In this document: positions 30,452-36,519 of the stretch, one piece after another
How positions within the stretch are numbered: the stretch's first letter is position 1
Layout of the letters: each line of letters opens with the position of its first letter
Assembly (NCBI GenBank): GCA_026417155.1
Contig: JAOADU010000071.1
Coordinates: forward strand, 1-40,791
Source of the DNA: Bacteroidales bacterium
GTDB lineage: Bacteria; Bacteroidota; Bacteroidia; Bacteroidales; GWA2-32-17
Length of the DNA: 40,791 bases
Direction: 5' to 3'
Notes under the pieces: model-generated
Database searches by the model: none
What the model was told of the DNA's origin: nothing
Seen by the model: the letters and a program-made list of their open reading frames with translations, nothing else
Translations under genes and position numbers: made by a program

Positions 30452-31243
30452 ATGGAATTATATAAAATATACAACGAAGATTGCTTAATTACAATGGGCA
30501 GAATGCCTAATGAGTTTATTGATTTTGTAATTACATCACCTCCATATGATGATATTAGAAATTATAATGGATTTCATTTTGAATTTGAAAAAATTGCTCA
30601 TGAACTATTTAGAATATTAAAAATTGGAGGCATCGTAATTTGGGTTGTTGCAGATGCAACTGTGGATGGAAGTGAAACAGGTACATCCTTCAAACAAGCT
30701 TTGTTTTTCAAGGAAAAAGTTGGATTTCGTATTCATGATACAATGATATATTACAAAAACAATCCAATGCCTCAAACTGGTAAAAGATATCATCAACATT
30801 TTGAATATATGTTTGCTTTTTCCAAAGGTTCACCAAAAACTTTTAATCCCATTACTGAACAAACAAAATACCGTGGTCTTGCAAATATGAAAAATAGAGG
30901 TAAAGAAGGATTACTAGATTATGAAAAAGTACCACGAACTACTGAAAAAAAAGTTGGTAATGTATTTTTTTATTCTGTTGGCGGTGGAATATCAACAAAA
31001 GACAAAATCGCTTATCATCATCCTGCTATTTTTCCTGAACAATTAGTGTATGATCAAATCTATACTTGGACAAATGAAGGTGACTTGGTTTATGATCCCT
31101 TTATGGGAAGCGGAACCACCGCGAAAGTCGCACATATTATGAACAGAAAATGGATTGGTTCAGAGATTTCAAAAGAATATGTTGAAATTGCTAATGAAAG
31201 GTTAAAAAATTACACTACAAATAATTTGTTTACAAAAAAATAA
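30452..31243 (+). CDS. Site-specific DNA methyltransferase (N4-cytosine/N6-adenine, beta-type motif order), Type II R-M
   Basis: TSPPYDDIRNY (motif IV) followed by YDPFMGSGTTAKVAHIMNRKWIGSEISKEYVEIANERL (motif I). Confidence 0.94.
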   Translation: MELYKIYNEDCLITMGRMPNEFIDFVITSPPYDDIRNYNGFHFEFEKIAHELFRILKIGGIVIWVVADATVDGSETGTSFKQALFFKEKVGFRIHDTMIYYKNNPMPQTGKRYHQHFEYMFAFSKGSPKTFNPITEQTKYRGLANMKNRGKEGLLDYEKVPRTTEKKVGNVFFYSVGGGISTKDKIAYHHPAIFPEQLVYDQIYTWTNEGDLVYDPFMGSGTTAKVAHIMNRKWIGSEISKEYVEIANERLKNYTTNNLFTKK

Positions 31244-31244
31244 T

Positions 31245-31994
31245 ATGAATTTAGTTGAACGAGGTTCTCTAATTGCAAAAAATGGCTTTAAGAATGAAGA
31301 CGATATTGTAAAAAAATTTAATGACTGGAAAAAAGACAAAGATGCTCAAGCATGGTTAGTTATTATGAAGTATGAACTTTCAGAAATTGAGTATGTTGAA
31401 GCTGTAAAAATATCAGGTTACAAAACTGACGTTCAAGTACAAATTACCATAAAACTCAAGAAAGCAATTGACATTGAAAATTTGCAGGTTAAATTGGTAA
31501 GTAATCCTAAAGGGTTTAATCAAATTGATAAGCGATGGGTTGACAAATATGCAGAAATGTGGAATATGCCTGAACAAATTGTTTCTATACTAAAGAGATA
31601 TACAGGTGAAGAAAAACCTACTATTAATAAACCTAAAGATAAAAGAAGAATGTTTGCAAATGAATTTTCTAAAGTTGAACAGGAAGTTATTTTAAAATGG
31701 TTAAAGAAAAATCAATCTTTAATTGTTTCTGACATTTTGAAAGGACAGGGGAAAATTTGCAGCAGAATGGATGTTAGCTACTCAAAAAGTTGAGAAAAAT
31801 GCAAGATGGATACTTAAACCCATGAATTTTTTATATGAATTATTTCGGGAACGGAGAAATTAAAATAACAAATAGAGGAAATTATAAAAATTGGAAGAAT
31901 TACTATGCAACGTAAAGGTGGTGATGGAGGAAGAGATACTGCAAAAATGTTACAATTTAAAATTAATCCTGCAGAATTGTTTACTCATGAATAA
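31245..31994 (+). pseudogene. Type II restriction endonuclease, reading frame broken by three +1 homopolymer shifts
   Basis: The 182-aa ORF 31245-31793 continues across three frames: GKFAAEWMLATQKVEKNARWILKPMNF / YMNYFGNGEIKITNRGNYK / IGRITMQRKGGDGGRDTAKMLQFKINPAELFTHE*; removing one base at each of three homopolymers restores a single ~249-aa ORF. Confidence 0.82.
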
Positions 31995-32145: not shown

Positions 32146-32211
32146 TAAAAAAAGTATACATACAGACAACGTTTTAACGTTATTCATTGTCTTAAAATTG
32201 AATAAAAGATC

Positions 32212-32748
32212 ATGCAAGGTAGCGATGGTATAACATACATTGGCGAAGCCAAACAAGGTTGGGAAGATCTTTATAATCAATATTCCCGAAAAATGTATGG
32301 TGTTTGTCTTCGCTATGCACGAAATGCTGATGATGCCAAAGATATCTTGCACGATGGTTTTTTAAAAGTTTTTAAATGCCTTCATGAATACAAAGGCACA
32401 GGTTCTTTTGAAGGTTGGATACGACGTATTATGGTGCATACAGCTATTAATACATACAGACTATACAACAGCCGATGGTTCTTCATTGAAGATAACACCG
32501 AAATAGACACCCCCGACGAAATAACAATTGAAGACAACATCTCGTATGAAGAACTTATAAAACACATCAACGCTCTGCCCGATGGTTATCGTATAGTGTT
32601 TAACATGTATGTTATCGAAGGATATAAGCATCAGGAGATTGCCCAAATGCTTGGCATCTCAGAATCAACGTCCAAAACTCAATTGCTCAAAGCAAGAAAA
32701 TTGTTAACTAAACGATTAGGAGTTAAGAACTATGAAAAAGTTTACTAA
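32212..32748 (+). CDS. RNA polymerase sigma factor, ECF (sigma-70) family
   Basis: YNQYSRKMYGVCLRYARNADDAKDILHDGFLKVFKCLHEYKGTGSFEGWIRRIMVHTAIN; LPDGYRIVFNMYVIEGYKHQEIAQMLGISESTSKTQLLKARKLL. Confidence 0.95.
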   Translation: MQGSDGITYIGEAKQGWEDLYNQYSRKMYGVCLRYARNADDAKDILHDGFLKVFKCLHEYKGTGSFEGWIRRIMVHTAINTYRLYNSRWFFIEDNTEIDTPDEITIEDNISYEELIKHINALPDGYRIVFNMYVIEGYKHQEIAQMLGISESTSKTQLLKARKLLTKRLGVKNYEKVY

Positions 32749-33955
32749 CGATCAATTCGACGATTTTATTCGTAATCAGCTATACGATTACGAACAAGAG
32801 CCTCCTATTGAGGTTTTTCAATCGTTAAAGAAAAATATTCAAAAAAACAATATTTTTCATTTTAATCAATATATTGCATTAGGAATTATTACTATTGCAA
32901 CTTTCATTGCCACATATTTTTTCCTTAATCACAATGATACTTCCATTACTACTCACAACTTGAATGACAAAACCACTATTGTTCAACCCGCATCCAACAA
33001 TATTATGGAGTACCCAATAACAACTGAAGAACATAAGCAAAATATTATCCACAATAATTCCAACACCCGTCAACAAAATTTACAACAAAAAGCAACCACA
33101 ACAAATAGTATTACTACAGAAAGCACGCAAGCCGATCAAATGAATCAATTAATTCAAACAGATAATAAAAATAACTTAAAAACCAAACCCGTTTATGAAG
33201 TTGTTACTCATGCTGCTACCTGTAAACAATGGAACGGAAAAGCATATATTCGTTGTAATACCTCAGATATCAGCTTTTATTGGAAAGAACTCAATGTCCA
33301 TAAAACAAGTGTTGAAAATTTGAAATACGGTCAATATACAGTTTTTGCAAAGCGTGGTGATGAAATTATTGATACCATTATTATTAACATTCCCGATAGC
33401 GGATCTGTAATTGCTGATTTTAAAATATACGATTTGCTTATCGGTAACGAATTAATGACAATTACAGAAAATCTTACACTGATAGACAAGAAAATATGGA
33501 AAAATCAAAACAATGTTTCATTTTATTGGTATTTCGATAATGAAGCGGTTTATGCACAAGCCGAACCCAAACATTCATTTACAAAATCGGGACAATATAC
33601 TATAAGCCTGGTAGCTAAATCATCTAAAGGATGCATTGATAGTATAACTAAATCGTATATTGTAGAAATACCATTAAACTATGTTGAATTGCCTAATATT
33701 TTCTCGCCCAATGGCGATGGCATTCATGATTATTTTACACCTGTACTCTACGATATGGAATCCGTTGAATGTTCCATTTTTGACAGAAACGGCACTTTAA
33801 TTTATGAATGGAAAACTTTAGATGGAAAATGGGATGGAAAAATTAGAAATACAAATCAAACCGCTTCACCTGGAACATATTATTATATTTTGAAAGGTAA
33901 AACCAAATCGGGAAAACAAATCATGCACAAAGGAATGGTTCAATTGGTATTGTAG
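32732..33955 (+). CDS. Membrane protein with anti-sigma-like cytoplasmic N-terminus, one TM, PKD domain and T9SS type-B/gliding-motility-associated C-terminal domain
   Basis: Overlaps the ECF gene by 17 nt; TM IALGIITIATFIATYFFL with no signal peptide; PKD-like VSFYWYFDNEAVYAQAEPKHSFTKSGQYTISLVAKSSKGCIDS; LPNIFSPNGDGIHDYFTP...CSIFDRNGTLIYEWK...WDGKI...GTYYYILKG. Confidence 0.85.
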   Translation: MKKFTNDQFDDFIRNQLYDYEQEPPIEVFQSLKKNIQKNNIFHFNQYIALGIITIATFIATYFFLNHNDTSITTHNLNDKTTIVQPASNNIMEYPITTEEHKQNIIHNNSNTRQQNLQQKATTTNSITTESTQADQMNQLIQTDNKNNLKTKPVYEVVTHAATCKQWNGKAYIRCNTSDISFYWKELNVHKTSVENLKYGQYTVFAKRGDEIIDTIIINIPDSGSVIADFKIYDLLIGNELMTITENLTLIDKKIWKNQNNVSFYWYFDNEAVYAQAEPKHSFTKSGQYTISLVAKSSKGCIDSITKSYIVEIPLNYVELPNIFSPNGDGIHDYFTPVLYDMESVECSIFDRNGTLIYEWKTLDGKWDGKIRNTNQTASPGTYYYILKGKTKSGKQIMHKGMVQLVL

Positions 33956-36519
33956 TTATTTTCTCTTTGCATCAACAATAACTTGACAGTATTTAAGAAA
34001 TGCTCTGTAGATATGGGCTTTGAAAAGTACTCAACAAAACCGCTTTCGATAAATTTCTCCTTATCCGATGGCATCGAATATGCTGTTTGAGCAATAAATG
34101 GTACATGCAAATATGGTGGATATTTTTCCTTTATTACCTTCAATAGCATCCCACCTTCCCACTCTTGTGGTAAATTAATGTCTAAAATAACAACATCAAA
34201 AGGCTTTTGTAAGTTATTTTCAATTACTTCTATTGTTTCTGAGCCAGTTTTTACCCATGTTACTTTAGCTACAGGTTCTAATATTGTAATAAGAAACAAT
34301 GCATTAAAATCATCATCTTCAACGAGCAACACTCTTCCTTTCTTATCGCCAACTATTGTTTCTATTTTTTGGGTATCAACTTCAGATTGAGGTACTTCTT
34401 CCGATGACGGTAAAATAATATTTACGGTAGTTCCAAAATTCTTTTTGCTCGATATTTCGATAGTTCCACCCATTAGCTTTACCAGACGTTTAGCCAGCGG
34501 TAACCCTAACCCTGCCCCTTGAAATGGCCTATCAAATCCCATTTGCTCTTGTCTAAACGCTTCAAAAATATTCGACAAGTAAGTTTCTTCTATACCGATA
34601 CCTGTATCGGATACAGAAATTTTTACATTACCCGAAGCTGGAATGTATGTTGTTGCTAAAGTTATTTTTCCTTTATTAGTGTATTTTACAGCATTATCGA
34701 GCACTTCTACTAATACTTTAAACAGCAAATCGTGATCGCAACGAACAGCAGGCACGTCGCCCAATAAATATTGCAACTCGAGTTTTTTTTCGTTTATCCT
34801 AAAAACAAATAAATCGCCTACTTTTTTTACAATCTTGTTCGGGTTACATACTGAAAAATGTGGTTTAATGTCATTTGCTTCGGCACGACTAATATCAATA
34901 ATATTATTCAATAAATTGAGCAAGCGGTTGCTGCTTTGTACAATGCCATCAATGTATTTTATCAAATCGGGATGTTCCGAGGCTTTTATTTTGCCTTTTA
35001 GTACTTCCGACAAGCCTACAATTGCGCTAAGAGGTGTGCGTATTTCATGATTGATATTTGCCAAAAATGCATCTTTTAAAAAGTTCGATTCTTCCATTTT
35101 CTTAATGGCTACCTCGAGTTGTTTTAAAGCTTTTTCTTTTTCATTAATTTCTTTTAGTAGTTCGTTTGTTCGCTCATTTACTCTTTGTTCGAGTTCTTCG
35201 TTCGTTGATATTAATTCTTCGTTTATTTTTTCAATTTCTAAGTTTTTCTCCTGAATAACTAGTTTTGACTTTTGTCCTATTCTCAATCGTACAAAAACTA
35301 ACAATAAGACAAAAAATAAGATTATTAAAACAATAATTAGTAAATACTTGAATGTTAAATTTTTTCTTAACTTTTCTAATGCTTGCTGATGTTCGATACG
35401 AAGATTATTTAGTTCATGTTCCTTTACACTTTGATTAATTAAATATTCCAATTCTAAAGATTTTTGAAGATATTGTTCATTGAATATAGAATCGTCGAAC
35501 TCATTAATGTATTTATACAACTCAACAGCTTCTTTATATTGGTTTGTTTTTTCGTAATATAATGCCTGTATTTCTACATAATAACGTTTTACATCTTTCG
35601 ATGTTTTATTATTTATAAGCTGTTTTGCATTTGAGAGATAATTTCGCGCTTTCTCAAGCTGATTGGTTAAACATGCTATTTTGGCTAGTGCAATTATATC
35701 TTTAATTATATTTTCTTTGTCGTTGGCTTGTGTATGTAAAACTAAAGCTTCGTTAAATGTTTTCTCTGCCAATTCATAATTTTTCATTAATAAATATACT
35801 TCGGCTATATTCCCGTATGAATTAGCAAGTGTTCTCGTCTCTCCAATTTTTTTTTTCAATTCAAGCGACTCTTTAAAATAGTTTAAAGCTTTCTCGTAGC
35901 TACCTATTTTTTTATATACTATTCCGATATTATTATAAGTATAAGATAAATTTTTTTGATCGTTAATTTGATGATATATTTCTTTGGCTTTTATAAAGTA
36001 GTCAAATGCTTTATCGTAGTTACCCTGATCTTTACTTATTAGTCCTAAGTTATTATATGTTTGCCCCAATAAAGCAATTTTATCGGACTTTAAGGCGTAC
36101 TGATATGCTTTATTGTAATTAGATAAGGCTTCGGAAAATAACGACCATTCATGAAAAATAGCTCCTATGCGATTATACACTTGAGCTAAGCCTTCATTAT
36201 CTCCTTTTTTATGTAGTAGTTGTCGTTGTAAATTTAGATAGGTTAAACTTTCTTTCCTGTCACCAGAATAATAATATGCTAATGCTAAATGATTGTATAA
36301 TGTAATTAGTTCGTCTATTTCAGCTCTTTTTTCAATATAAAGTAATAATTCTTTTCCGAGCTTTATAGCTCTTTCAGGATTTTTACCAATGTAAAATTTT
36401 ACGGTATCGAAATATGATTTGTACGACAGCGTATCGAAAGAATATGAAAATATTTTTGTACTCCAACAATTTAAACCAACAAATAACAATAGAATATATA
36501 TGTTTTTTATCGAATTCAT
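33940..36519 (-). CDS. Hybrid sensor histidine kinase with N-terminal TPR array and C-terminal receiver domain
   Basis: Six or more TPR-like repeats, TM, coiled coil, HisKA FLANINHEIRTPLSAIVGLSE, HATPase (DNAVKYTNKG, DTGIGIEE, GAGLGLPLAKRLV), REC (LLVEDDDFNALF, VVILDINLP, YFSKPIS). Confidence 0.95.
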   Translation of the reverse strand: MNSIKNIYILLLFVGLNCWSTKIFSYSFDTLSYKSYFDTVKFYIGKNPERAIKLGKELLLYIEKRAEIDELITLYNHLALAYYYSGDRKESLTYLNLQRQLLHKKGDNEGLAQVYNRIGAIFHEWSLFSEALSNYNKAYQYALKSDKIALLGQTYNNLGLISKDQGNYDKAFDYFIKAKEIYHQINDQKNLSYTYNNIGIVYKKIGSYEKALNYFKESLELKKKIGETRTLANSYGNIAEVYLLMKNYELAEKTFNEALVLHTQANDKENIIKDIIALAKIACLTNQLEKARNYLSNAKQLINNKTSKDVKRYYVEIQALYYEKTNQYKEAVELYKYINEFDDSIFNEQYLQKSLELEYLINQSVKEHELNNLRIEHQQALEKLRKNLTFKYLLIIVLIILFFVLLLVFVRLRIGQKSKLVIQEKNLEIEKINEELISTNEELEQRVNERTNELLKEINEKEKALKQLEVAIKKMEESNFLKDAFLANINHEIRTPLSAIVGLSEVLKGKIKASEHPDLIKYIDGIVQSSNRLLNLLNNIIDISRAEANDIKPHFSVCNPNKIVKKVGDLFVFRINEKKLELQYLLGDVPAVRCDHDLLFKVLVEVLDNAVKYTNKGKITLATTYIPASGNVKISVSDTGIGIEETYLSNIFEAFRQEQMGFDRPFQGAGLGLPLAKRLVKLMGGTIEISSKKNFGTTVNIILPSSEEVPQSEVDTQKIETIVGDKKGRVLLVEDDDFNALFLITILEPVAKVTWVKTGSETIEVIENNLQKPFDVVILDINLPQEWEGGMLLKVIKEKYPPYLHVPFIAQTAYSMPSDKEKFIESGFVEYFSKPISTEHFLNTVKLLLMQRENNYNTN

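Follow-up and report, generated by a model that had tools for sequence, protein, structure and literature searches.

A cargo-like type IX secretion domain on a predicted anti-sigma factor in Bacteroidales

We describe an overlapping gene pair in a contig of a Bacteroidales bacterium (JAOADU010000071.1, assembly GCA_026417155.1; the whole stretch analysed, 40,791 nt, is called the window here), in which an ECF sigma factor gene is followed by a gene, ORF2, for a predicted anti-sigma factor that ends in a type-B C-terminal domain (CTD) of the type IX secretion system (T9SS). Judged from profile comparison, the whole folded ectodomain of ORF2 (residues 157-407) is homologous to the C-terminus of a cargo protein under the same promoter, and the regulon predicted from the promoter motif is mainly T9SS cargo, not machinery. 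We tentatively propose that the pair may be a one-polypeptide switch spanning the envelope, in which a cargo-mimicking anti-sigma factor would control T9SS cargo genes and sense the engagement of its own CTD, a proposal that in our judgment falls just short of probable. How cargo supply is matched to the export machine in Bacteroidota is not settled, as the data on PorA/PorXY-SigP and on Flavobacterium ECF factors concern machinery genes, and a single protein that connects a cargo-like domain with an ECF sigma factor would directly answer this question.

Results

The features of the pair are collected in Table 1. The product of the sigma gene matches PF04542 (54 bits), PF08281 (57 bits) and TIGR02937 (99.5 bits), and its reading frame shares 17 nt with ORF2 (32732-32748), as had been noticed in an earlier reading of the sequence alone. 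The putative promoter, GACAAC-N16-TTGTCTTA, is conserved in the P1 orthologues, and the sigma start codon follows its 3' edge after about 20 nt. The conserved GACAA...TTGTC element upstream of the gene was also considered as an RNA hairpin, an idea that was dropped because constant spacing, an AAC-type -35 and the existence of other GCAAC-N-CATCT/CGTCT promoters all favor an ECF promoter.

Table 1. Coordinates (window positions) and supporting evidence for the sigma/anti-sigma pair, and related cargo loci
Feature	Position	Strand	Evidence or identity
ECF-type promoter of the sigma/anti-sigma operon	32165..32194	+	GACAAC-N16-TTGTCTTA
ECF sigma factor gene, 178 aa	32212..32748	+	PF04542, PF08281, TIGR02937
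Predicted anti-sigma factor with cargo-like T9SS type-B CTD (ORF2), 407 aa	32732..33955	+	Conserved beside sigma gene
Cytoplasmic anti-sigma-like domain (ASD), residues 1-45	32732..32866	+	Profile A5
Transmembrane (TM) helix, residues 46-66	32867..32929	+	Hydropathy; AF2 helix 26-66
Disordered tether, residues 67-153	32930..33190	+	Low pLDDT; low identity
Ig/SprB-like and PKD-like domains, residues 154-314	33191..33673	+	PKD_4; hhalign to cargo
T9SS type-B CTD, residues 315-407	33674..33955	+	CHU_C, TIGR04131, conservation, pLDDT, PDB sequence match
Motif-contiguous cargo in other family genomes			G007:C28 = L158; G005:C132 = L152; G002:C21 = L202

ORF2 contains a single hydrophobic segment (residues 47-65, mean Kyte-Doolittle value 2.04). 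By hydropathy, no signal peptide-like segment is present at its N-terminus, where about 46 hydrophilic residues come before the first hydrophobic segment, and because Lys residues precede the TM helix without such a segment, an N-in topology is predicted. This agrees with the sequence-only reading, which had assigned to the protein about 45 cytoplasmic residues, one TM helix and no signal peptide. The ASD carries the motif F...KF..FE.PP..V...IK, and a Pfam scan found no FecR domain in ORF2. The PKD-like domain and the type-B CTD, likewise anticipated, both score above their cut-offs: PKD_4 at residues 258-308 (33.4 bits, cut-off 27), CHU_C, a type IX signal domain, at 319-405 over the full model length (64.5 bits, cut-off 27), and TIGR04131 (45 bits, cut-off 35). 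An additional Ig/SprB-like domain occupies residues ~155-222. Among PDB sequences, a profile search matched PKD domains of collagenases as well as GhpA, the grappling hook protein of Aureispira, at its CTD end. The AF2 model, weak overall (pTM 0.35), contains helices at 6-17 and 26-66, with pLDDT of 30-39 over residues 70-149 and mostly 83-92 over 340-407. Mean pairwise identity among nine orthologues is 41% in the ASD, 29% in the TM helix, 18% in the tether (which is 76-100 aa long), 36% in the first Ig domain, 42% in the PKD domain and 51% in the CTD, which is thus the most conserved part, aligns without gaps and retains the canonical motif residues.

The orthologous sigma/anti-sigma pair occurs in eight other genomes of the family (10 genomes) with the same domain order and overlaps of 14-23 nt, and a second, diverged paralogous pair (P2) is found in six family genomes, including that of the window. 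These recurrences argue that the pairing is beyond chance. Combinations of ECF, TM and CTD, which the earlier reading had proposed to look for more widely, account for 16 of the 24 new loci inspected at the order level (393 genomes) and, in the class, for 14 of the 69 loci inspected among those found with profile A5, which covers the first ~80 residues only (ASD and TM helix). Of 395 genomes in the class, 202 hold relatives found with this profile. An ECF gene lies immediately upstream in 67 of the 69 inspected loci, which supports the proposed sigma/anti-sigma pairing on genomic grounds. The outer module at these 69 loci is a type-B CTD in 14, short in five and beta-barrel-like in most others; PF13568 was matched in 10 of 14 that were sampled, and A5 matched barrel-bearing, ECF-linked proteins at E values of 4.9e-12 and weaker. 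The N-terminal domain and TM helix of ORF2 are, by these profile matches, homologous to those of Dma-like anti-sigma factors across the class, with the CTD in place of the barrel. Because of this homology and the gene pairing, residues 1-45 are predicted to hold the sigma factor.

Two further lines of evidence were set aside. On the sigma tree the CTD label needs about seven changes, which might hint at repeated module swaps; the starred branches and an AU test (p 0.34) are compatible with one origin. The co-occurrence with T9SS is non-specific, as Sov/SprA is present in 28 of 29 CTD-type genomes but also in 19 of 19 barrel-type genomes. In the MAG of the window (94.5% complete) Sov/SprA was not found; it is present in the other nine family genomes. 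The same MAG holds a third ECF/ASD-TM pair (L237:1566-2707, G000:C51), whose short anti-sigma-like protein of 201 aa has no type-B CTD.

The homology between ORF2 and cargo extends beyond the CTD. When ORF2 residues 157-407 were compared with the last ~250 residues of a giant type-B cargo, hhalign gave a probability of 99.9% (E 1.1e-34, 29% identity). In a genome-wide comparison, cargo contiguous with the promoter motif is among the best or near-best CTD matches outside the orthologues in G002, G005 and G007, and the spacer is 1 nt shorter in both the sigma and the cargo promoter of G002; in G000 and G003 the link between cargo and motif spans a contig gap. In P2 operons, the sigma gene is followed by the CTD-bearing anti-sigma gene, a gene for a small secreted protein and a gene for a type-B cargo of 2,600-2,770 aa. 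These data support, at the level of sequence, the notion of a pseudo-substrate CTD put forward in the earlier reading.

In other families of the class, a type-B cargo gene directly follows seven of 13 CTD-type pairs, compared with zero of 20 barrel-type pairs (Fisher p 0.0004), and lies three genes further on in an eighth CTD-type pair. In G603 the adjacent cargo has the closest non-self CTD to that of the anti-sigma factor. Mimicry of the adjacent cargo does not hold as a general rule, since the neighbor is not the closest CTD match in family f140, G610 and G700. A comparison of cognate with shuffled anti-sigma/adjacent cargo similarity gave p 0.007 for eight pairs, a value confounded by relatedness. 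At three class-level loci a terminator-like hairpin, read by eye, lies between the anti-sigma and cargo genes.

Small secreted proteins (130-220 aa) are encoded just 5' of the giant type-B cargo gene at L143, L152, L165, L170, L179, L072, L060, L066 and L200. No credible Pfam family was found for them, and a role as cargo chaperone or accessory is possible. Giant type-B CTD genes also occur behind some barrel-type (Dma-like) pairs (L299, L304, L309 and L310; families f172 and f178), where they are preceded by a gene for a protein of ~500 aa; barrel-type pairs may control T9SS cargo as well.

Scanning the ten family genomes with RRCAAC-N16-TTGTCTDA gave 48 matches, compared with seven for the reversed pattern and one with an N20 spacer. 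Seven of the 48 are the sigma genes' own promoters. The other 41 comprise six within or opposite ORFs, three without a clear gene, eight with targets truncated at contig ends and 24 that are interpretable, that is, intergenic with a complete target gene. T9SS CTDs are encoded by 19 of these 24 targets (16 type A and three type B; NCBIfam confirmed 18 of the 19 calls, and similarity gave the one for the second gene at L180). Since T9SS cargo is common in this family, with at least 150 type-A matches in the larger genomes, the background was set at a generous 12%. The enrichment is then significant at p of about 7e-14, or 5e-10 when in-ORF and empty matches are counted as failures, values to be read with the matches not being independent, as family genomes and sister species share orthologous targets. 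Among the contig-cut targets, five start with a small secreted protein, and a giant cargo gene comes next in four. No T9SS core machinery gene lies behind any of the 48 matches in the ten family genomes. The window's own genome has only two strong sites, one the pair's own promoter and the other at C75:48297, ahead of the gene for a small secreted protein with a cargo gene that a contig end splits. The motif also precedes pairs of TlpA/ResA-like thioredoxin-domain genes at L163, L171 and L177 (in G007, G008 and G009), which could serve the folding of secreted cargo and are the only possible quality-control target in the motif regulon.

Discussion

We speculate that the predicted anti-sigma factor acts as a probe for the state of the export machine. 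The proposed switch is based on the architecture of ORF2, its pairing with the sigma gene, the promoter, a predicted regulon rich in cargo and the homology of ectodomain and cargo; sigma binding, CTD docking, surface exposure and the direction of the signal are what we infer. The N-terminal ~45 residues would hold the ECF sigma factor at the inner membrane, and the TM helix and a disordered tether of ~85 residues would present an ectodomain that mimics the ~250 C-terminal residues of a type-B cargo. Its CTD would be handled by the outer-membrane sites for type-B cargo, Sov/SprA together with a PorP/SprF-like barrel, so that the anti-sigma factor would report whether these sites are present and free. 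Docking at PorV or PorU, which the sequence-only reading had named as partners, is not favored, as these belong to type-A cargo, whereas type-B CTDs reportedly bind to PorP/SprF-like barrels with no need for PorV and PorU (PMC9143113). Engagement of the CTD, or the pull exerted on it, would most likely free the sigma factor by a conformational change or regulated proteolysis, and the freed sigma factor would transcribe its own operon and the cargo genes. Accumulating cargo would then compete for the same T9SS sites, leading to recapture of the sigma factor. This direction, which could be wrong, is preferred because the sigma factor is predicted to drive cargo, not machinery, and release on blockage would worsen a jam.

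The main rival to the switch is a sensor like Dma, in which the CTD merely delivers the ectodomain to the outer membrane or surface and parks it there, and in which the sigma factor is released when an external ligand or envelope stress displaces the tether; the cargo regulon would then supply the surface proteins needed in that environment. The shared ASD-TM-tether chassis, with barrel and CTD as interchangeable ends, speaks for such a sensor, as do the uncleaved anchoring of type-B CTDs to PorP-like barrels (PMC9143113) and the giant type-B cargo found after some barrel-type pairs. We nevertheless consider it rather unlikely, as it leaves unexplained why in the window's family the whole ectodomain, beyond the CTD, copies a co-controlled cargo. 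The earlier reading had placed the CTD in the periplasm, which is one possible topology and not the sole one: with the N-terminus kept in the inner membrane, as in Dma, a tether of ~85 residues could let the CTD extend to the outer membrane or to the cell surface. Lack of a signal peptide and exposure at the surface are therefore compatible.

It would also be tempting to see the pair as an alarm in which a docked CTD keeps the sigma factor bound and blockage or overload of T9SS frees it, as the sequence-only reading had suggested. A cargo-like CTD on an anti-sigma factor fits this idea, a faltering machine has been proposed to lead, through PorA of Porphyromonas gingivalis, to higher T9SS expression (PMC7712824), and in F. 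psychrophilum the promoters of T9SS machinery genes have been connected to an ECF pair (PMC9723704). The motif-defined regulon points the other way, as 19 of its 24 interpretable targets are cargo and no match precedes a core machinery gene, so that freeing the sigma factor on blockage would send more cargo to a machine that is already jammed, a positive feedback; we regard such an alarm as improbable. Very improbable, in our view, is a reading in which the CTD has no T9SS role, being a relic or some generic periplasmic Ig-like fold, and the pair senses something else. Ig and PKD folds are common in periplasmic proteins, and Foldseek returned only generic Ig-like matches for the AF2 model (pTM 0.35), a result otherwise unused as evidence. 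A relic would hardly be expected to be the best conserved part of the protein, ungapped and with its canonical residues kept, in a pair whose regulon and neighbors are T9SS cargo.

Dma, PorA/SigP and FlgM each share one element with ORF2. Like Dma (PMC13088901), ORF2 combines an adjacent ECF gene, a short N-terminal anti-sigma domain, a single TM helix, a long disordered tether and a putative outer-membrane module, a likeness drawn through barrel-bearing ECF-linked relatives. Unlike Dma, it has no C-terminal outer-membrane beta-barrel but a type-B CTD with cargo-like Ig/PKD domains, and its pair is predicted to control T9SS cargo, whereas the Dma regulon consists of vesiculation and PUL genes. 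In the PorXY-SigP system of P. gingivalis, a CTD-bearing protein, PorA, likewise informs an ECF sigma factor on T9SS, but PorA, a surface protein made with a signal peptide, acts through a two-component system with no direct anti-sigma factor, and SigP serves machinery genes (PMC7712824). Type-B cargo such as SprB and PG1035 shares the type-B CTD (PMC9143113), and the cargo compared here also shares the Ig/PKD-like domains before it; cargo has a Sec signal peptide and is fully exported, whereas ORF2 has an N-in TM helix and a cytoplasmic domain. ORF2 is therefore a member of neither Dma, having no barrel, nor type-B cargo, having no signal peptide. In flagella, sigma28 controls late substrates of the export machine, and its anti-sigma factor FlgM bears the export signal of that machine. 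The sigma factor described here is similarly predicted, from the motif and the 19 of 24 cargo targets, to control substrates of the same export machine; FlgM, however, is soluble and leaves the cell, whereas ORF2 has a TM helix, so that its release would come by pull or proteolysis and not by simple export. We found no description of an anti-sigma factor carrying a T9SS CTD in the open-access literature.

More broadly, the Dma chassis is modular, with its own barrel or a T9SS CTD as outer end. It is possible, although we hold this a little more loosely than the switch itself, that widespread anti-sigma factors of Bacteroidota use a tethered copy of cargo as a probe of T9SS capacity, the translocon's engagement of the dummy releasing the ECF sigma factor that makes cargo. 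If this is true, a feedback between export capacity and cargo synthesis would be built in.

The neighboring genes in the window deserve a brief mention. On the opposite strand, a TPR hybrid histidine kinase gene (33940-36519) has 16 nt in common with the end of the anti-sigma gene; the kinase was considered as a partner and rejected, its synteny being kept among the inspected loci in G001 only, and not in G003 or others. On the other side lies a HinP1I-like restriction-modification locus (30452-31993) with an intact methyltransferase (PF01555). A premature stop ends the R.HinP1I-like frame (31245-31793), and the remaining family-like sequence is found in other frames, so that either the nuclease is disrupted or the assembly contains indels.
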